Of a DNA stretch of 64,000 nucleotides, positions 53,656-62,792 are shown piece after piece. The translations under genes were made by a program, and so were the position numbers. This DNA is from Verrucomicrobium sp. BvORR106 (GTDB lineage: Bacteria > Verrucomicrobiota > Verrucomicrobiia > Verrucomicrobiales > Verrucomicrobiaceae), in NCBI RefSeq assembly GCF_000739655.1, contig NZ_BATR01000130.1, positions 62,001 to 126,000 of the forward strand, written 5' to 3'. Under the pieces are notes generated by a model. That model did no database searches. It was not told where the DNA came from and worked only from the letters and a program-made list of their open reading frames with translations. Within the stretch, counting starts at the first letter, position 1. Every line of letters starts with the position of its first letter.

Positions 53656-55044
53656 TTACTTGAGGACATCCCGCACGTACAACTCAGACACGGGCTGGCT
53701 CATGTAGTCTTCACCCAGCAACTTCTTCAGCTTGGCCGCCGCCGTTTTCCGGTCGTCGCCCGTGTCCTTCTCATGGCGGGCCCAGAACTCGTCCCACCAA
53801 CCTTCGGGCTGCACCTTCGCTCCGGCATATTCCGTCACGCGACCCGTCTCCCCGCCTGTGACCAAACTTCCTACATAGCTGCTCTGGGCATACACCCGCT
53901 CAATTTGAGCCTTGATCGCGGCCACATCGGCTTCCGAGACCACCCCGTTGGAGGTGGCTTTGTAGAACTGCACGGTGACTCGCACCGGATAGTCAGGATC
54001 CCGGCGAATCGGAAGGTTGTCGATCTCTGTGAAAGGACCTTCCATTTCCCCGTGGCCGATGACGGCATTCTCCACGTCACTGGTGCGTGTCCGCGCTGCA
54101 CTTGCCGGAGCCGCGGGCATCGCCCCTTCGGACGCCCCGAGTGAGAAGCGACGAGGCCGTTCCTTTTGTTTAAGGGGCACCTGGATGAGAAGCACCATGT
54201 TCAGCCCGGTTTCCGCTCCCAGTTTAGGAGCCTGGCCTTCGGGACCAGCCTCCTTGCCGACTTTGGAATCGGACTCCCGTTCACCGGTGAGACTTGCCCG
54301 CTGACCATTCGCATTGAAGAACAGGCGTTGGCCCCAGGCGCTGCCGCTGGCAAAGGCATCGCGTTTGTTGTCGATCACCGTCACACTCGTGCCTTCCCTG
54401 GTGCACAAAATGGTCAACACCGCGGGATCTCCGCTGATGGACTGGTAGTTGAACAACACCGGGTTGAAGGTTGCCTTGCCTTCTTTGGGGATCGGGAGGA
54501 AGCACGCCTGGGCGCTCACCAGCACCTTCGAATCGCGCGCCGCAAGCAGGGACAGGGCTTGACCGTCGTTTTTCCACGAACTTGGCTGACTGAGGAAGTC
54601 CAGAGGGCTGGAAAGGAAATCCTTCAGAGAGACGCGTTGCAGACCACGCCCGCGTTCATTGCCCACCAGCAGAGTGAAGGCGGCTGGATCAATGTCGCAC
54701 GACTTGTCGTCAAAGTTGGGAAAGCGAATGACGGGCATGCAGGTGGCCTTGAATCCACCTTTGGTCTCGCGTCCCACCTGGATGGTCATGTCACTGATGT
54801 TGGGGCCCACCGATGAGCCCTTAAAGCGTCCCGTGTCCTCCCAAGTAAGGTCCAGCACTTGCAAGCCACGAGCGCGGGCCAGTTCTTGAGCCTCTGCATC
54901 GCGCGACATGGTGGCGGTGCGCTCAATGGCCTTCTCATAGGGATCGCCAAACAAAGACAGGGCAGGTGCCGGAGGTGTCATGGTCAGGAGTGCGGCAAGG
55001 CCCAGCGTCAGACTGGTGCCCTTCTTGGTGGAAAGCATTTTCAT
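53656..55044 (-). CDS. Secreted protein of unknown function
   Basis: The protein has about 462 residues. A signal peptide lies at about 8-30 (LTLGLAALLTMTPPAPA), then a beta-rich region (LQVLDLTWEDTGRF...SDMTIQVGRE, CMPVIRFPNFDDKSCDID), a charged linker near 260-320 and a C-terminal domain with TVQFYKATSNGVVSEADVAAIKAQIERVY and KLKKLLGEDYMSQ. I chose ATG 55044, which puts the signal peptide close to the start. No family is recognised. It stands alone and is divergent from the CrtI-like gene. Confidence 0.6.
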   Translation of the reverse strand: MKMLSTKKGTSLTLGLAALLTMTPPAPALSLFGDPYEKAIERTATMSRDAEAQELARARGLQVLDLTWEDTGRFKGSSVGPNISDMTIQVGRETKGGFKATCMPVIRFPNFDDKSCDIDPAAFTLLVGNERGRGLQRVSLKDFLSSPLDFLSQPSSWKNDGQALSLLAARDSKVLVSAQACFLPIPKEGKATFNPVLFNYQSISGDPAVLTILCTREGTSVTVIDNKRDAFASGSAWGQRLFFNANGQRASLTGERESDSKVGKEAGPEGQAPKLGAETGLNMVLLIQVPLKQKERPRRFSLGASEGAMPAAPASAARTRTSDVENAVIGHGEMEGPFTEIDNLPIRRDPDYPVRVTVQFYKATSNGVVSEADVAAIKAQIERVYAQSSYVGSLVTGGETGRVTEYAGAKVQPEGWWDEFWARHEKDTGDDRKTAAAKLKKLLGEDYMSQPVSELYVRDVLK

Positions 55045-55189
55045 GGTCAAGGGGGGGGAAACTCTCTCAAGAGGCATGACGGCCTCCCTCAGGATTTCTT
55101 GTCAGATTCCCCTTCCCTGTGACGCACGCGCTACCGCGCCACATTGACACTGGCGCTTCCCCCGCATCCTCCTATGCTGAGCCCTACGC

Positions 55190-56608
55190 ATGCCTCAGTA
55201 CGACGCCATCATCATTGGTTCCGGCCCAAACGGTCTGGCCGCCGCCATTCGCCTGGCTCAGCAGGGATGGAAACCCCTGGTCTTGGAAGGTGCAGACACC
55301 GTGGGCGGCGGCATGCGCACCAAGGAGCTGACCAAGCCCTTCCATCTGCACGACGTCTGCTCTGCCATTCACCCCATGGGGGTGGCCTCCCCTTACCTCC
55401 GATCCCTCGATCTGGAATCTCACGGACTACGCTGGATTCACCCTGACCTCCCGCTGGCCCACCCGCTAGACGGTGGACGCGCCGTGCTACTGCACCGTTC
55501 CCTGGAAGAAACCGCCGCCGGACTTGGACGGGATGGCGGGCGATATCGCTTCTTTTTCAAAACACTGGCCGAGCATGCCCCGGCACTTTTCGGGGATCTT
55601 CTCGCACCCGCCAGACTGCCCCGGCACCCGCTGCTGATGACGCGGTTCGGCATGGGTGCAGGTTTACCTGCCAGCGTCTTCGCCCGTTATTTCTCCACAC
55701 CTGAGGCCCGCGCCTTGTTCGCAGGAAATGCTGGTCACTCGGTCATGCCCTTCCACCTGCCGCTGACCTCGGCCATTGGTCTCGTCTTGCAAACGGCCGC
55801 CCACGCAGGTGGTTGGCCCATTCCTGAAGGTGGCTCACAAAGCATCGCGAATGCCATGGTCAGCCTGCTGACTTCGCTCGGCGGTGAAGTGCGCTGCAAC
55901 ACTCCAGTGAAATCCCTGGGCGACCTGCCAGACGCCCGAGCCTACCTCTTCGACATCAGTCCGCGGCATCTGGCCAGAATCTGCGGCCGTGAGCTGCCCC
56001 AGGCCTATCGCTACAAGCTGGAACGCTTCCGCCACGGGCCGGGCGTCTTCAAGGTGGACTACGCTCTGAACCACCCCATTCCGTGGGCCAACCCCGACTG
56101 CAGCCGGGCTGGCACGGTGCATCTGGGCGGCACCCTTGAGGAAATAACTATCAGCGAGCGGGATGCCTGGCAGGGGCGGCATTCGGACAATCCCTTTGTC
56201 CTGGTTTCCCAGCCCTCCATGTTGGATCCGACCCGCGCGCCTGCCGGCAGACACGTGGCCTGGGCCTACTGCCACGTCCCGCATGGTTCCACGGAGGATC
56301 GTCTGGAGACCATCACCCGTCAGATCGAGCGCTTTGCCCCCGGGTTCCGCGATTGCATCGTCGCCACCTCCACGCTCAACACCAGCCAGATGGAGAGCTA
56401 CAACCCCAACTACATCGGAGGCGATGTGGTGGGCGGCATCACGGACTGGCGACAACTCTTCACCCGGCCCGCAGGTTTGTTCCAGCCCTACGCCACCCCC
56501 AACCCAAAAGTCTATCTCTGCTCGGCTTCGACCCCTCCCGGCGGTGGTGTGCACGGCATGTGCGGTTATTGGGCGGCGGAATGTGTTTTGAAGCGCGGTC
56601 GCAAGTAA
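55190..56608 (+). CDS. Phytoene desaturase-like FAD oxidoreductase (CrtI family)
   Basis: The protein has 472 residues. AIIIGSGPNGLAAAIRLAQQG (residues 6-26) is the FAD Rossmann loop. The C-terminal region YLCSASTPPGGGVHGMCGYWAAE (about 443-465) is the FAD-binding end typical of CrtI-type amine oxidase-superfamily proteins. It belongs to the broad NAD(P)/FAD-dependent group annotated as phytoene dehydrogenase-related; no carotenoid genes are nearby, so the substrate is unknown. The cupredoxin gene follows 48 bases later on the same strand. Confidence 0.87.
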   Translation: MPQYDAIIIGSGPNGLAAAIRLAQQGWKPLVLEGADTVGGGMRTKELTKPFHLHDVCSAIHPMGVASPYLRSLDLESHGLRWIHPDLPLAHPLDGGRAVLLHRSLEETAAGLGRDGGRYRFFFKTLAEHAPALFGDLLAPARLPRHPLLMTRFGMGAGLPASVFARYFSTPEARALFAGNAGHSVMPFHLPLTSAIGLVLQTAAHAGGWPIPEGGSQSIANAMVSLLTSLGGEVRCNTPVKSLGDLPDARAYLFDISPRHLARICGRELPQAYRYKLERFRHGPGVFKVDYALNHPIPWANPDCSRAGTVHLGGTLEEITISERDAWQGRHSDNPFVLVSQPSMLDPTRAPAGRHVAWAYCHVPHGSTEDRLETITRQIERFAPGFRDCIVATSTLNTSQMESYNPNYIGGDVVGGITDWRQLFTRPAGLFQPYATPNPKVYLCSASTPPGGGVHGMCGYWAAECVLKRGRK

Positions 56609-56656: not shown

Positions 56657-57328
56657 ATGCCGGACATGAGATCCCTGCACTGGCCATCCTGGTTGCTTGG
56701 CAGCCTCGTCCTTGCCCTGGCAGCATCTTCCGTCTGCCACGGACAGGCCATCGTCGAGGGACAAGTGAGCACCATCCCCCAGCCGCCACCCGCTCCGATG
56801 GGGCGCTACCAGTTGAAGGCTGGCCAACTTGCGGCTCCCGCCAAGCCCGTTGCGGTCATCTACCTGGAAGGTGCCCCTTCAGCACGGGCTGGAAACACGG
56901 TCAGCATCATGGGACAGCGCGGCTATCAATTCGAGCACCATGTGTTGCCCATTCAGACCGGTACCCGCGTTGAGTTCCCCAACCATGACGAGGATTATCA
57001 CAACGTCTTCTCCCTCTCCAAGACGAAGCGGTTTGACCTTGGGCGCTACCGCATGGGGGAGAATCCCCCAGCCCTGACCTTCGACAAACCTGGGGTCGTC
57101 CGCCTGTACTGCGAGATTCACCAGCACATGCGTGGGGTCATACTGGTCCTGGACACGCCCTACTTCACGACCACCACTGCGGACGGCAAGTTTCGCCTCA
57201 AAGGTCTTCCCGCTGGTTCTTACAATCTGAAGGCCTGGCTGGACGAGAAGACGATCCTCTCCGCCCCCGTCACCTTGAAAGCTGGACAAACCGTCCGGCT
57301 CAACTTCGATAGCAGCAATCGCAAGTAG
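56657..57328 (+). CDS. Secreted cupredoxin-domain protein
   Basis: The protein has about 223 residues with a signal peptide (WLLGSLVLALAASSVCHG). A cupredoxin fold at about 75-175 keeps a complete type 1 copper set: His in EDYHNVF, then Cys, His and Met in LYCEIHQHMRGV. A carboxypeptidase regulatory-like beta-sandwich follows (FRLKGLPAGSYNLKAW, about 184-199). Such proteins are often labelled methylamine utilisation proteins but probably serve as copper or electron carriers. The start may be 56657 or 56666. It is first in a run with a cyclase and an outer-membrane barrel. Confidence 0.85.
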   Translation: MPDMRSLHWPSWLLGSLVLALAASSVCHGQAIVEGQVSTIPQPPPAPMGRYQLKAGQLAAPAKPVAVIYLEGAPSARAGNTVSIMGQRGYQFEHHVLPIQTGTRVEFPNHDEDYHNVFSLSKTKRFDLGRYRMGENPPALTFDKPGVVRLYCEIHQHMRGVILVLDTPYFTTTTADGKFRLKGLPAGSYNLKAWLDEKTILSAPVTLKAGQTVRLNFDSSNRK

Positions 57329-57380
57329 GCCGCGCCGCCCCCCGTCTAAACCTCGGCGAGTTCCAACCAACCCATGCCCC

Positions 57381-59249
57381 GTGCCTGCCCTTTCCTACCG
57401 CACCAAGCTTGTTCTGGCGATGTCCCTCGTGGTGGCCGCGGTGACGGGGTCCACCATCTTTGTGACAGAGCGGCAGGTGCAGACCGGCTATCAGCGGTTG
57501 TTTGAGGAACAGTTCCACCACCAGACGCAGGCCTTCGCTGAGCACCGGGCCCGTCAGCTTCAGGAGCTATCTACGCTCTGCAAGACCACGGCAGAAAAGG
57601 TGCGAGTAGTCTCCGCCATGGAGGAAGCCCTCGCTTCCAATGATCCGGACCTTCTCTACGACAACCTCGATGTCGAAGGCCTGTCCCTGATCAACCGACA
57701 GGCCGAGGTCGCTGCCGCGGAGCAGTCCATCAGCACCTCCCAGGCACCTGCGGATGAAACGGATGGCGCCACGGCCATGGTGGTGGATGCCAGCGGTCAT
57801 CCGCTCGTTCCTACCAAGCCGCGCAGCTACTTCCCCACCTTTCTGGATGTGCAGCAGGGCAAGCCCGTGGCTCTCTTCAAGAAGCGCCTCACCACCGCCG
57901 ACCTCCAGCGCCAGGAAATCGGCTATCTGGCCGTGAAACAAGCTCGCCCCAAGTCAGGCTCCCCTGCGGACTTTCACCTGCGCGAGTTCATCGTCACCCC
58001 GTTGATCATCGAGCCCACCAACGAGCTCCTCGGAGCCATCGTGGTGAGTTATCCCGTCTCTGATCTTACTTCTCAAACGCTTCCGGAAGGCATGCAGGAA
58101 CTGATGAGCGGCATCTGGCTGGACGGTCAGATCTACGGCCCGGCCATGCCATCATCCCTGCACCCCTCCATCAACAGCCGGGTCTCCAGCATGATGCGCC
58201 ACCTCCCTCAGTCCACGGGGCCCCACAGCGATCTCAATCCGCTGTACGACGGGAAGAAGCCGCACCGGCTGTTCATCAAAGAGATCCCTCACAACCCGCT
58301 CTTCCCGGCTGCCGCCCAGGTGGGGCTCTACTCTCTGCACGAGGCGATGAAGGAACAGCGGGGCTTGCGCCTCGTCATCCTTGGTTTCGGCCTCTTTGCT
58401 CTCGTCGTCGGCATCGGCTTCGTGATGCTCATCTCGCATGGTTTCAGCAAGCCCATCGAGCAACTCGTGCAGGGCACGAACCGCGTGCGGCAGGGTGACT
58501 TCGAAACACCGGTGGAGGTGAAGACACGGGACGAACTGGGAACGCTCGCCGCATCGTTCAACGAGATGACCAAGGACCTCGCTCTCAAGGAACGCTACCG
58601 CGCGGTGCTGTCGCAGGTCACCGACCGTGAAGTCGCCTCACAGATGATCAGCGGTCAGATCCGTCTGGGTGGGGAAATCCGGTCCTGCAGTGTCGTCTTC
58701 TGCGACATCCGGGGCTTCACCTCACTGACGGAAAACATGCCCCCGGCGGAGGTGATCGCCCTGCTCAACGAGCACATGACGGCCCTCAACCGAGTGGTGC
58801 ACAAACACCACGGCGTGGTGGACAAGTTTGTGGGAGATCTGATCATGGCCATCTTCGGTGCCCCCATGAGCTACGGGCACGACGCCCTCAATGCCGCCCG
58901 TTGTGCCCTGGAGATGCTACAAGTGCGGACGGCATTGAATGAGACGTCCACCCACCGCATCGAAATGGGCATCGGCCTCGCCACGGGCGAGATGCTCGCC
59001 GGCTGCATGGGATCGGCCGACCGGTTGAACTACACCGTCCTTGGGGAACGGGTAAACTTGGCCTCCCGCCTCTGCTCCAGCGCTGGCCGGATGGAGTTGC
59101 TCATTGATCGCAACACCTACGATGCCCTCCCCCCAGATACCATCGTCGAGCCCACCGCTCCCCTTGAGTTGAAAGGGTTCAGCGATCCCATTCCCGCCTA
59201 CCGGCTGCTGGCCCTACCCGCACCTCAACCCATTCCGGCCCCCGTATGA
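57381..59249 (+). CDS. Transmembrane adenylate/guanylate cyclase with HAMP domain
   Basis: The protein has 622 residues. The first helix (about 9-28) and second helix (about 329-352) enclose a 300-residue periplasmic sensor. A HAMP domain (about 353-406, SKPIEQLVQGTNRVRQGDFETPV) and a class III cyclase domain (about 425-600) follow. Catalytic positions are present: Asp in VFCDIRGFTSL, Asp in KFVGDLIMAIFG, and the Asn/Arg pair in GERVNLASRL. It should make cAMP or cGMP in response to a periplasmic signal. The start is GTG 57381. Its stop overlaps the next start (ATGA). Confidence 0.92.
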   Translation: MPALSYRTKLVLAMSLVVAAVTGSTIFVTERQVQTGYQRLFEEQFHHQTQAFAEHRARQLQELSTLCKTTAEKVRVVSAMEEALASNDPDLLYDNLDVEGLSLINRQAEVAAAEQSISTSQAPADETDGATAMVVDASGHPLVPTKPRSYFPTFLDVQQGKPVALFKKRLTTADLQRQEIGYLAVKQARPKSGSPADFHLREFIVTPLIIEPTNELLGAIVVSYPVSDLTSQTLPEGMQELMSGIWLDGQIYGPAMPSSLHPSINSRVSSMMRHLPQSTGPHSDLNPLYDGKKPHRLFIKEIPHNPLFPAAAQVGLYSLHEAMKEQRGLRLVILGFGLFALVVGIGFVMLISHGFSKPIEQLVQGTNRVRQGDFETPVEVKTRDELGTLAASFNEMTKDLALKERYRAVLSQVTDREVASQMISGQIRLGGEIRSCSVVFCDIRGFTSLTENMPPAEVIALLNEHMTALNRVVHKHHGVVDKFVGDLIMAIFGAPMSYGHDALNAARCALEMLQVRTALNETSTHRIEMGIGLATGEMLAGCMGSADRLNYTVLGERVNLASRLCSSAGRMELLIDRNTYDALPPDTIVEPTAPLELKGFSDPIPAYRLLALPAPQPIPAPV

Positions 59250-60475
59250 CCCCAGTGCTCCTTCTTTCGCGAACCCAGCAAGTCAGGCTGGCCTGCACCT
59301 TGGGCACGGCCATCCTGTTGCTAGGCGGCACCACCCAGGCCATCACGCTGCTTCCGCCAGATTCTCCAGTCGACGCCACCCTGACGGGCTCGATCGACCT
59401 GGAAACCTACTCCATCGATCAACCAGCCCCCGGCCTGCTTTTCACCGATGACGACACTTACCTAGAACCTCGTCTCTCCCTCCTGTTGGATCTGCAGTGG
59501 GGTCCACACTGGAGCGCCTTCGTCCAGGCCCGGCTTGATCGCGGTTTTGATCCCGGCGCGAGATCAGACGGCGACATTCGACTGGATGAATACGCGATTC
59601 GGTGGAGTCCTTGGGGTGACTCGATGTTGAACGTTCAAGTGGGCAAATTTGCCTCCGTCTTTGGCAACTGGATCCCTCGCCATCTCAGCACCCAAAATCC
59701 CTTCGTCACCGCGCCAGCGCCCTACGAGAATGTGTTCGGCATCACCGATGCCGCCGTCCCTCTCAGTCGGGAGGCCTTTCTAGGTCGCAAAACGCAGGCT
59801 GACAAGAAGCGGGACTGGCTGACTCAGATCTGGGGCCCCTCCTATGCCCACGGAGCTTCTTTGTCGGGCAGGTTGGACCAGTTTGAGTATGCCTTTGAGA
59901 TCAAGAGCAATGCCCTCTCATCCCGCCCCAGTGCCTGGGAAGCAAGGGAACTCGTGTGGTACCACCCCACCATCACGGGACGCCTGGGATGGAAGCCCGA
60001 TCCCGCTTTTGCGCTGGGCATCTCGGGGAGCACGGGTGCCTATCTGCTGGAGACTGCCGACGCCACCCTTCCCACTGGAAGCGACCGGGATGACTTCAAG
60101 CAGGATACCGTTGGGATTGACCTGCGGTACTCAATCCGCCATTTCGAACTCTGGAGCGAGTTCATTTTCACCCGTTTCGAAGTGCCTGGCGTTGGCTATG
60201 CCGACCTGGCTTCGTTCTATGTGGAGGGGCGTTACAAGATCACCCCCAGCCTCTATGCCGCCCTGCGCTGGAATCAGCAGTGGTTTGACGATATCTCAGA
60301 CGGACACGGCGGCTCCCCCAGCTGGGACCGGGATCTCTACCGGGTGGATGTGGCGCTGGGATACCGTTTTGCCCGGAATCTGCAAGGCAAGGTGCAGTAC
60401 AGTTATGGACACGAACCCGGTCTGAACGCCAATGGCAGCCACCTGCTGGCCACACAGATCACCTGGACGTTCTGA
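59246..60475 (+). CDS. Outer-membrane beta-barrel (porin-like) protein
   Basis: The protein has 409 residues with an N-terminal signal (LACTLGTAILLLGGTTQA) and alternating amphipathic strands throughout, for example LSLLLDLQWGPHWSAFVQARLDRG and FYVEGRYKITPSLYAALRWNQQW. It ends in ITWTF, the terminal phenylalanine that directs barrel assembly. No TonB box or plug is seen. The ATG overlaps the cyclase stop, so translation is coupled. It may act as the outer-membrane partner of the cyclase sensor or cupredoxin protein; that is inferred from position. Confidence 0.85.
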   Translation: MTPVLLLSRTQQVRLACTLGTAILLLGGTTQAITLLPPDSPVDATLTGSIDLETYSIDQPAPGLLFTDDDTYLEPRLSLLLDLQWGPHWSAFVQARLDRGFDPGARSDGDIRLDEYAIRWSPWGDSMLNVQVGKFASVFGNWIPRHLSTQNPFVTAPAPYENVFGITDAAVPLSREAFLGRKTQADKKRDWLTQIWGPSYAHGASLSGRLDQFEYAFEIKSNALSSRPSAWEARELVWYHPTITGRLGWKPDPAFALGISGSTGAYLLETADATLPTGSDRDDFKQDTVGIDLRYSIRHFELWSEFIFTRFEVPGVGYADLASFYVEGRYKITPSLYAALRWNQQWFDDISDGHGGSPSWDRDLYRVDVALGYRFARNLQGKVQYSYGHEPGLNANGSHLLATQITWTF

Positions 60476-62150: not shown

Positions 62151-62792
62151 ATGAACTGGAAACTGAGCTGCACCGTATTGGGAGGCCTCGTCCTCACCGT
62201 GGCCCATGCAAGCGACCTCAGCGATGCTTTACGAAAGCTCTCTGACAACGGCCCCACCTACTATCAGCCGCCACCCACCTACAACGACAGTCCCGGCTAC
62301 TATCCGTACGCGCCACCTCCTCCGAACATCCCGCCGCCGCAGCGCGCCCAACATGCCTACGATGTTGGCTACCGGGTCGGTCAGGATGACTTCCTCCAGG
62401 GGCACTCCAAGCACTTCGTCCGTCATGTGGATCTGTTTGACGATGCCACCCGCGACGCATTCTCCCACGGCTATGACACCGGTTACGACGTTGCACGTGA
62501 GGCAGCCGCCCGTCGGGATCAGGAGTACTATCGCGCTCGGGTATCTCCTCAACCGCCCGTGCCCAGTGAGCACTACAAATCCGGCTACTACCCGTACACC
62601 CCGCCCCCCAAGGAAGCTCCCAATGTGGACCGGCAGCGTCACGCTTATGACATAGGATACCGCGTGGGTCAGGATGACGCCCAGAAGGGGCTCTCAAAAC
62701 ACTTTACCCGTCACGACAAACTCTTCGACAAGGACACGCACGATAGCTTCTCCGCGGGGTACGACAAAGGCTTTGACCGGGCTCGCAAGTAG
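62151..62792 (+). CDS. Secreted protein made of two 68-residue tandem repeats
   Basis: The protein has 213 residues with a signal peptide (about 1-22, VLTVAHA). It then contains two ungapped copies of one unit, residues 49-116 and 145-212, identical at about 43 of 68 positions. Each starts GYYPY and a proline run, then HAYD-GYRVGQDD, SKHF-RH, LFD, F-S-GYD and ends in AR. The Asp/His/Tyr-rich pattern could bind metal or sugar, but I recognise no family. It is not preceded by an operon partner. Confidence 0.7.
   Translation: MNWKLSCTVLGGLVLTVAHASDLSDALRKLSDNGPTYYQPPPTYNDSPGYYPYAPPPPNIPPPQRAQHAYDVGYRVGQDDFLQGHSKHFVRHVDLFDDATRDAFSHGYDTGYDVAREAAARRDQEYYRARVSPQPPVPSEHYKSGYYPYTPPPKEAPNVDRQRHAYDIGYRVGQDDAQKGLSKHFTRHDKLFDKDTHDSFSAGYDKGFDRARK

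Follow-up and report, generated by a model that had tools for sequence, protein, structure and literature searches.

Why do the genes for a copper-type protein, a nucleotide cyclase, and a porin-like barrel stand side by side, and could their products act together? The question is raised by a locus of Verrucomicrobium sp. BvORR106 in a 64,000-nucleotide stretch of contig NZ_BATR01000130.1 (assembly GCF_000739655.1, positions 62,001 to 126,000 of the forward strand; hereafter the window), where three genes, all on the plus strand, encode in order a secreted cupredoxin-like protein (CUP), a transmembrane sensor with a class III nucleotide cyclase (CYC), and a predicted 16-strand porin-like outer-membrane barrel (BAR) (Table 1). 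The CUP and CYC genes are spaced by 52 bp, and the CYC and BAR genes overlap by 4 bp (ATGA, 59246-59249). An earlier interpretation made from the letters of the window (the sequence-only reading) had described this ordered set, including a periplasmic sensor of about 300 residues in the cyclase, as well as the ATGA overlap, and both were confirmed. As read from gene set and order, signalling members of the outer membrane, the periplasm, and the inner membrane are placed next to one another. Comparison across genomes suggests that the trio is real and widely kept, a modular cassette for envelope sensing in which one member is cupredoxin-like, and a plausible mechanism can be proposed for it.

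Table 1. Features of the CUP–CYC–BAR locus in window coordinates (AF2, AlphaFold2; ORF, open reading frame; pLDDT, predicted local distance difference test)
Feature	Position	Strand	Basis
CUP, secreted cupredoxin-like protein, 223 aa	56657..57328	+	ORF and sequence, ATG 56657 (alternative ATG 56666)
Predicted type 1 copper ligand codon, H115	56999-57001	+	sequence
Predicted type 1 copper ligand codons, C152 / H155 / M158	57110-57112 / 57119-57121 / 57128-57130	+	sequence
CUP C-terminal CarboxypepD_reg-like domain	57152..57310	+	PF13620, E 4.6e-9, over cut-off
CYC, 622-aa transmembrane sensor carrying a class III nucleotide cyclase, start codon GTG	57381..59249	+	ORF and Pfam
CYC predicted periplasmic double-Cache domain, about residues 31-327	57471..58361	+	AF2 (pLDDT 86.5), Foldseek, VIA-align
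CYC HAMP domain, residues 351-399	58431..58577	+	PF00672, E 8.8e-15, over cut-off
CYC class III catalytic domain, residues 434-603	58680..59189	+	PF00211, E 1.9e-27
BAR, predicted 16-strand porin-like barrel of the outer membrane, 409 aa, last residue Phe	59246..60475	+	ORF, alignment, AF2 and structure matches

Recurrence of the gene set

CUP matches were found in 31 of 57 relatives' genomes, with 17 of the loci classed as strong (at least 159 bits and at least 44% identity, own genome counted) and the rest as weak; the CUP of Verrucomicrobium strain BvORR034 is 92% identical to that of the window. Twenty regions were taken from the relatives, comprising the 16 strong loci besides the window, three weak loci, and one partial locus at a contig edge, and neighboring genes were called by longest-ORF rules. 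All 16 strong loci had BAR near CUP and a homologous sensor next to CUP; BAR was also found in the contig-edge partial, and the three weak loci displayed neither BAR nor sensor. A scan with a CUP alignment over the genomes of 84,980 species gave 227 confirmed relatives, from which the best 80, mostly labelled Verrucomicrobiota, were kept (including L083 and L130, which share their contigs with L039 and L042). These 80 loci were found via two peptide patterns, one of them the copper loop, so that ligand conservation in this set is partly selected; relatives found through whole-protein comparison are free of copper-loop selection. An ORF homologous to the sensor was adjacent to CUP in 79 of the 80 loci, and BAR was present in 65 of the 80 and in 54 of the 58 where at least 3.5 kb of downstream sequence was available. 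By these counts the trio recurs far beyond close relatives, in line with the sequence-only reading, which had proposed the three genes as one candidate system. The exception for the sensor was L072, where CUP directly precedes BAR; a hybrid kinase whose sensor part is homologous is located about 3.4 kb off on the opposite strand. Records labelled Akkermansia muciniphila or Klebsiella pneumoniae (L057, L059, L061, L065, and L076) also carry the cassette or part of it, and these look like mislabelled metagenome bins.

The pairing of CUP and BAR was also seen in an even sample of 387 genomes from the phylum, where CUP matches were found in 40 and BAR in 17. All 16 CUP loci of at least 187 bits (15 genomes) had a BAR of at least 300 bits no more than 3 kb away, and 16 of the 17 BAR loci at that level were beside such a CUP; these thresholds were chosen after the scores were known, with the next lower scores being 161 bits for CUP and 79 bits for BAR. 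The sample overlaps the other sets, in that G000, G001, G012, and G017 supplied alignment rows and L073 lies on contig G261:C9. The one BAR locus without such a CUP, L151 (G068:C3), is a strong BAR homologue in a genome with no CUP match at E 1e-10. Gene order can last in close relatives, and a phytoene-desaturase-like gene is kept upstream in three related loci, as might be expected if the trio were ordinary neighbors retained by common ancestry without a joint function. That explanation is contradicted by the CUP/BAR pairing in the phylum sample and by the recurrence over the 80 loci; moreover, the unit lasts at protein identities of about 40-60%, in varied surroundings, and with no other widely conserved neighbor, and we regard shared ancestry alone as exceedingly improbable.

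No other gene family of at least 100 aa was found to recur around the cassette; the most frequent one was present at 11 of 112 loci, many of which have short flanks. This speaks against a metabolic pathway, and a methylamine or electron-transport operon was rejected on this ground. Weaker CUP branches mostly also precede a sensor. These included seven loci with hybrid kinases (L153-L159, four of which were scanned with Pfam), and at a further weaker locus, L164, a hybrid kinase was 2 kb away. Just upstream of CUP in six hybrid-kinase loci is a gene of about 450 aa which, as a group, was found to be a BAR homologue by profile comparison (probability 98.3, E 1.1e-14; reversed, 0.38).

Exchange of the output domain

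The output of such a unit had been supposed to be exchangeable, and this held, with cyclase, kinase, and hybrid kinase outputs all represented in the cassette family. Of the 80 loci, 46 have a kinase output, 24 have a cyclase, and four have a hybrid kinase, while five loci were interrupted by contig ends and one (L072) had no adjacent sensor. Output classes were assigned by hidden Markov models (HMMs) built from sequences collected in this analysis; set by hand were L102 (sensor over two frames), L159, and the 'no adjacent sensor' state of L072 and L148-L150. According to Pfam, the sensor outputs are PF00211 or HisKA/HATPase_c, with hybrid kinases also present, and the type was confirmed in this way for seven kinase sensors from the relatives' genomes, the hybrids L126, L099, and L072, and the cyclase L091. 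The periplasmic parts of the cyclase and kinase sensors were found to be homologous over 244 columns (probability 100, E 3.7e-56; reversed control, E 0.12); the periplasmic input half is kept while the output domain is swapped. A matching response-regulator gene of the OmpR type was detected on the same strand at 38 of the 46 kinase loci and at none of the 24 cyclase loci, indicating that the partner gene goes with the type of output domain.

Swaps of the output appear to have been few. On a quick CUP tree, built without bootstrap from 74 of the 131 CUP loci, nine changes were counted among five output states (minimum four) compared with an average of 36.8 after shuffling, and 29 kinases and three hybrids fell into one supported group. 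Dropped from this tree were duplicates of more than 80% identity, four named duplicates, and 13 proteins without an output class; the distant CUP relatives L052-L054 and L139-L141, which have no cassette by HMMs, were excluded. The sensor/BAR junction was ATGA at 56 of 76 loci (kinase 41/44, cyclase 11/27, and hybrid 4/5), and the CUP/sensor junction was NTGA, a possible 4-bp overlap, in 49/51 kinase, 12/39 cyclase, and 5/12 hybrid cases. Since any TGA stop has A, G, or T before it three-quarters of the time, NTGA is weak evidence, and the argument for coupling of the genes is therefore drawn from ATGA alone. A promoter and terminator scan returned nothing exceeding chance level.

In the window the output domain scored 96.5 bits against PF00211 (cut-off 21.9), and D442, D486, K482, T552, N559, and R563 are all present. 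We take these to be (i) the metal-binding aspartates (D442 and D486); (ii) the transition-state residues (N559 and R563); and (iii) the adenine-specifying residues (K482 and T552) of class III enzymes. Both metal aspartates were kept in 40 of 40 family cyclases, N559 and R563 in 39 (with one gap), K482 in 34 (Gln in six), and T552 in 35 (Ser in four and a gap in one). On the Lys/Thr rules of class III enzymes, we take ATP to be the probable substrate of most family cyclases. The sequence-only reading had proposed cAMP or cGMP as the output; K482 and T552, by this assignment, point to ATP and favor the first half of that proposal. The source genome encodes five PF00211 cyclases and has 11 matches to cyclic nucleotide-binding domains, which could serve as cAMP readers.

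The cupredoxin-like protein as a candidate input subunit

The N-terminus of CUP looks like a signal peptide when judged by eye. The predicted copper ligands His, Cys, His, and Met are present in cupredoxin order, with window positions 57110-57130 translating to C-E-I-H-Q-H-M, and were invariant in 17 of 17 aligned homologues and then in 112 of 112 in a larger alignment, which includes a few near-duplicates and was in part found by a pattern containing C..H..M; within this partly pattern-selected set, the homologues keep the complete copper site noted from the sequence. Pfam cupredoxin models were below cut-off (E 0.0045 and 0.006), with 17.4 bits for PF13473 (Cupredoxin_1, cut-off 27) and 17.4 bits for PF00127 (Copper-bind, cut-off 21.2), and the term 'cupredoxin-like' is used because no cupredoxin family model was over cut-off. 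Weak PDB matches were to the cupredoxin domain of nitrite reductase, plastocyanin, and amicyanin. CUP resembles amicyanin and other small cupredoxins in these weak alignments and in the C-x2-H-x2-M spacing of its copper loop, which is that of amicyanin. It differs from amicyanin in scoring 13 bits where 110.2 are needed for the amicyanin model, and from the small cupredoxins in its extra C-terminal CarboxypepD_reg-like domain; furthermore, no additional methylamine gene was listed in seven annotated Burkholderiales and Novosphingobium CUP regions. A phage origin was rejected, as no phage record matched CUP.

In the AF2 model of the periplasmic part of CYC, a long N-terminal helix carries two PAS-like lobes, which corresponds to a double Cache. 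The top rows of Foldseek include 2p7j and 3lid, and VIA-align gave Z-scores of 13.1 to LuxQ (3c38; root-mean-square deviation 4.5, 204 aligned), 11.9 to LuxQ in its LuxP complex (2hj9), 11.9 to PctD (7prq), and 10.9 to DctB, where rows differing by 1 or less are counted as ties and the statements concern fold only, among the matches listed. The Pfam scan gave no match to the dCache model, to CHASE8, or to the LuxQ-periplasm family in the window sensor, so that the likeness to the last is one of shared fold only; in relatives, dCache_3 was over cut-off in L153 and L154, below it in L165, and matched in L136.

We lean slightly towards an envelope sensor cassette in which CUP would be the periplasmic input subunit, in the manner of YfiR-YfiN-YfiB or LuxP-LuxQ; this model was guided by LuxQ, which is read via a separate periplasmic protein, and by HmsC-type systems. 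In such a cassette, small solutes would pass the outer membrane through BAR, which may admit whatever CUP or the sensor meets. CUP would present the signal in the periplasm as copper occupancy, redox state, or a bound partner, and would dock on the double-Cache domain, or dimer, of the inner-membrane sensor, perhaps by way of its conserved R125-F-D-L-G-R stretch. The resulting change would be relayed via the second transmembrane segment and HAMP to the class III domain, altering cAMP synthesis, and in relatives the same input half would drive a kinase with its regulator or a hybrid kinase instead. If true, this would be a bacterial redox or copper sense that spans both membranes, and its relatives would amount to a series of natural chimeras in which a single double-Cache input can be compared as it drives cyclase and kinase outputs. 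Cupredoxins are taught as electron carriers; beyond that role, CUP would be an apparent sensor input.

The YfiBNR architecture consists of a redox-responsive periplasmic protein controlling a membrane diguanylate cyclase, with an outer-membrane partner. The cassette is like YfiR-YfiN-YfiB and HmsC-HmsD in combining a periplasmic protein, an inner-membrane HAMP sensor with a periplasmic domain, and an outer-membrane partner, and in having an exchangeable output. It differs in that (i) CUP is cupredoxin-like and gave no match to DUF4154 (PF13689), the mark of YfiR and HmsC; (ii) the sensor is modelled as a double Cache without CHASE8; and (iii) BAR is modelled as a 16-strand porin rather than a TonB receptor or YfiB. 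The likeness to LuxP-LuxQ is that the periplasmic domain of LuxQ is among the top solved fold matches (3c38, with ties within 1) and that a structure of LuxQ bound to a separate periplasmic protein has been solved (2hj9). LuxP, however, has a sugar-binding-protein fold for autoinducer 2, whereas CUP is copper-protein-like and gave no match to a LuxP-type binding protein in the Pfam scan; LuxQ is also a kinase and is not known to have a paired porin. Because DUF4154, a LuxP-type protein, and CHASE8 were not found, the cassette was not filed under either system. HmsC-type systems are reported to join a redox-responsive periplasmic protein to a membrane enzyme (PMC8846402), and sCache_heme (DUF3365) domains are reported to place a redox/nitric oxide (NO)-active metal cofactor in Cache-based envelope sensing (PMC12889525); in those domains the heme sits within the Cache fold itself, while the metal site of the cassette would be in a separate protein, CUP. 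No description of the cassette was found in the open literature searched, with subscription journals outside the search.

A set of the YfiR type was detected in the same group of bacteria. DUF4154 matches were found in eight of the 57 genomes, own included; in the own genome the gene is on another contig (G000:C118:218249-218683). At six DUF4154 loci (L168-L173, own genome included), a barrel-sized gene adjoins in 6/6 and a membrane sensor in 5/6, and the three loci that were scanned have a TonB-receptor-type barrel and a CHASE8-HAMP sensor, with a methyl-accepting chemotaxis protein (own genome), a hybrid kinase, and a kinase as outputs. These barrel–YfiR–sensor sets form a second, parallel envelope cassette with exchangeable output, of which the CUP cassette, if read correctly, would be the metalloprotein counterpart within the same cells.

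For BAR, no Pfam family was over cut-off, the profile search found no PDB porin, and phmmer gave one weak porin match (OmpC, E 0.094). The AF2 model (pLDDT 79) has 16 strands, with VIA-align Z-scores of 28.6 to OprP, 28.3 to OprO, and 25.0 to DcaP; general porins scored about 24. BAR was accordingly modelled as a 16-strand porin fold, nearest to the phosphate porins OprP/OprO among the matches listed; the likeness is in fold only and comes without a sequence-family match. Since OprP/OprO and DcaP are substrate-selective channels, the porin might instead admit a specific, perhaps anionic, ligand of the Cache domain, with CUP modifying or oxidizing that ligand or shielding the site from copper. 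The seven arginines among the invariant alignment columns of BAR are consistent with this alternative, as are the fold matches of the sensor to PctD, DctB, and other small-ligand sensors. The nearest fold reveals no substrate, however, and four cyclase cassettes with room for BAR lack it, yet the sensor is kept at nearly all CUP-found loci; we consider a ligand-specific channel of this kind unlikely. That a copper protein is beside a barrel gene at nearly all loci, pairs without a sensor included, would also fit a conduit for electrons, or a docking port, formed at the outer membrane by porin and cupredoxin, with the sensor reporting extracellular redox or metal reduction. Porin-cytochrome barrels are large, though, unlike a 16-strand barrel, which is probably too narrow for a cupredoxin, and no further gene family recurs; such a conduit is judged very improbable.

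Separable parts and relatives in other phyla

CUP, cyclase, and BAR were found together in three loci labelled Acidobacteria (L071, L091, and L107) and two labelled Proteobacteria (L066 and L068), with the labels as in the records. A GGDEF-EAL sensor directly follows CUP in eight of nine Burkholderiales and Novosphingobium loci (L143 and L147 by HMM alone), and the Pfam scan of the sensor of Comamonas L136 gave dCache_3, HAMP, GGDEF, and EAL. At L144 (Caballeronia sp. SBC1 pSBC1_4), no match to the GGDEF-EAL part was found; DUF3034, hemoglobin, and CUP are kept, with nothing but a short 'cache domain' gene after CUP. These plasmid loci are like the cassette in that a CUP homologue with all copper ligands precedes the sensor, and differ in their neighbors, as genes for DUF3034 and a group 1 truncated hemoglobin are beside CUP in eight of the nine (L137, L138, and L142-L147; on the opposite strand in two Novosphingobium loci) and neither is present in Comamonas L136. 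The neighbors suggest oxygen or NO as a possible theme. Pseudomonadota CUP homologues are annotated as 'methylamine utilization protein' or 'carboxypeptidase regulatory-like', and no function for the CUP-EAL loci was found in the literature searched; a role in sensing would give meaning to genes under the former name. Plasmid records with a CUP match numbered 53, of which 33 were Sinorhizobium, and no cassette was detected by HMMs at Sinorhizobium L140 and L141 or Rhizobium L139.

Several observations weigh against a single cassette with CUP as its input. In the phylum sample, 13 of 20 family sensors were beside a strong CUP and seven were not; HMMs found no adjacent CUP at these seven (L174-L180), which comprise five cyclase and two kinase outputs and include one sensor about 4 kb past the barrel of a complete cassette (L174) and one with a nearby BAR remnant containing a stop (L175). 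Genomes G021, G321, and G363 carry a family sensor with no CUP match at E 1e-10, and the sensor can thus exist without CUP. Conversely, three of the 16 strong CUP-BAR pairs (L148-L150) had no sensor match between or nearby, with CUP followed directly by a divergent BAR. BAR itself was missing from four cyclase loci with room for it (L061, L067, L075, and L084), and no BAR match was found at five weaker CUP-cyclase loci (L160-L163 and L165, two of them scanned with Pfam). Finally, comparison of the periplasmic part of the CYC family with that of the Pseudomonadota GGDEF-EAL sensors did not establish homology (probability 25.6, E 7e-4), and profile comparison did not support DUF3034 as a BAR equivalent (probability 0.7). 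Because sensors without CUP and CUP-BAR pairs without a sensor occur, the parts are separable, and an obligate trio was rejected. A single sensor family across phyla is not claimed: the full-length comparison looked strong (probability 97.3), but the transmembrane/HAMP part alone gave 95.8 and the periplasmic part alone 25.6. Similar cupredoxin and porin neighbors of GGDEF-type sensors had been mentioned in the sequence-only reading; GGDEF-EAL sensors do stand beside CUP homologues, and DUF3034 genes are adjacent, but homology of the periplasmic sensor part and of DUF3034 to BAR did not follow.

The occurrence of family members without CUP, together with the common placement of a sensor and its targets in one operon, is consistent with CUP and BAR being regulated targets, in which case the double-Cache sensor would bind a small ligand and control a copper electron carrier and an uptake porin. 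Counter to this, CUP immediately precedes the sensor with every type of output, and no further family recurs, hence no pathway for CUP is visible; we find regulated targets a rather unlikely explanation and retain CUP as the candidate input subunit. A broader form of the input-subunit reading is put forward tentatively, as possible rather than probable: a blue copper protein may serve as the detachable input subunit of transmembrane envelope receptors, reading copper or periplasmic/extracellular redox with a dedicated porin, as one module that feeds cAMP, phosphorelay, and cyclic di-GMP outputs across Verrucomicrobiota, Acidobacteriota (by labels), and Pseudomonadota.

Upstream of the cassette, a phytoene-desaturase/CrtO-like FAD gene (window 55190-56608, plus strand) ends 48 bp before CUP. 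Among the 20 regions compared, it was retained upstream only in L036-L038 and is therefore probably outside the cassette. A 473-aa protein encoded on the minus strand (53656-55077) had no Pfam or NCBIfam match at E 0.1. Downstream, at 62151-62792 on the plus strand, a small secreted-looking protein with no family over cut-off was found to contain an internal duplication (AYDVGYRVGQDD / AYDIGYRVGQDD).

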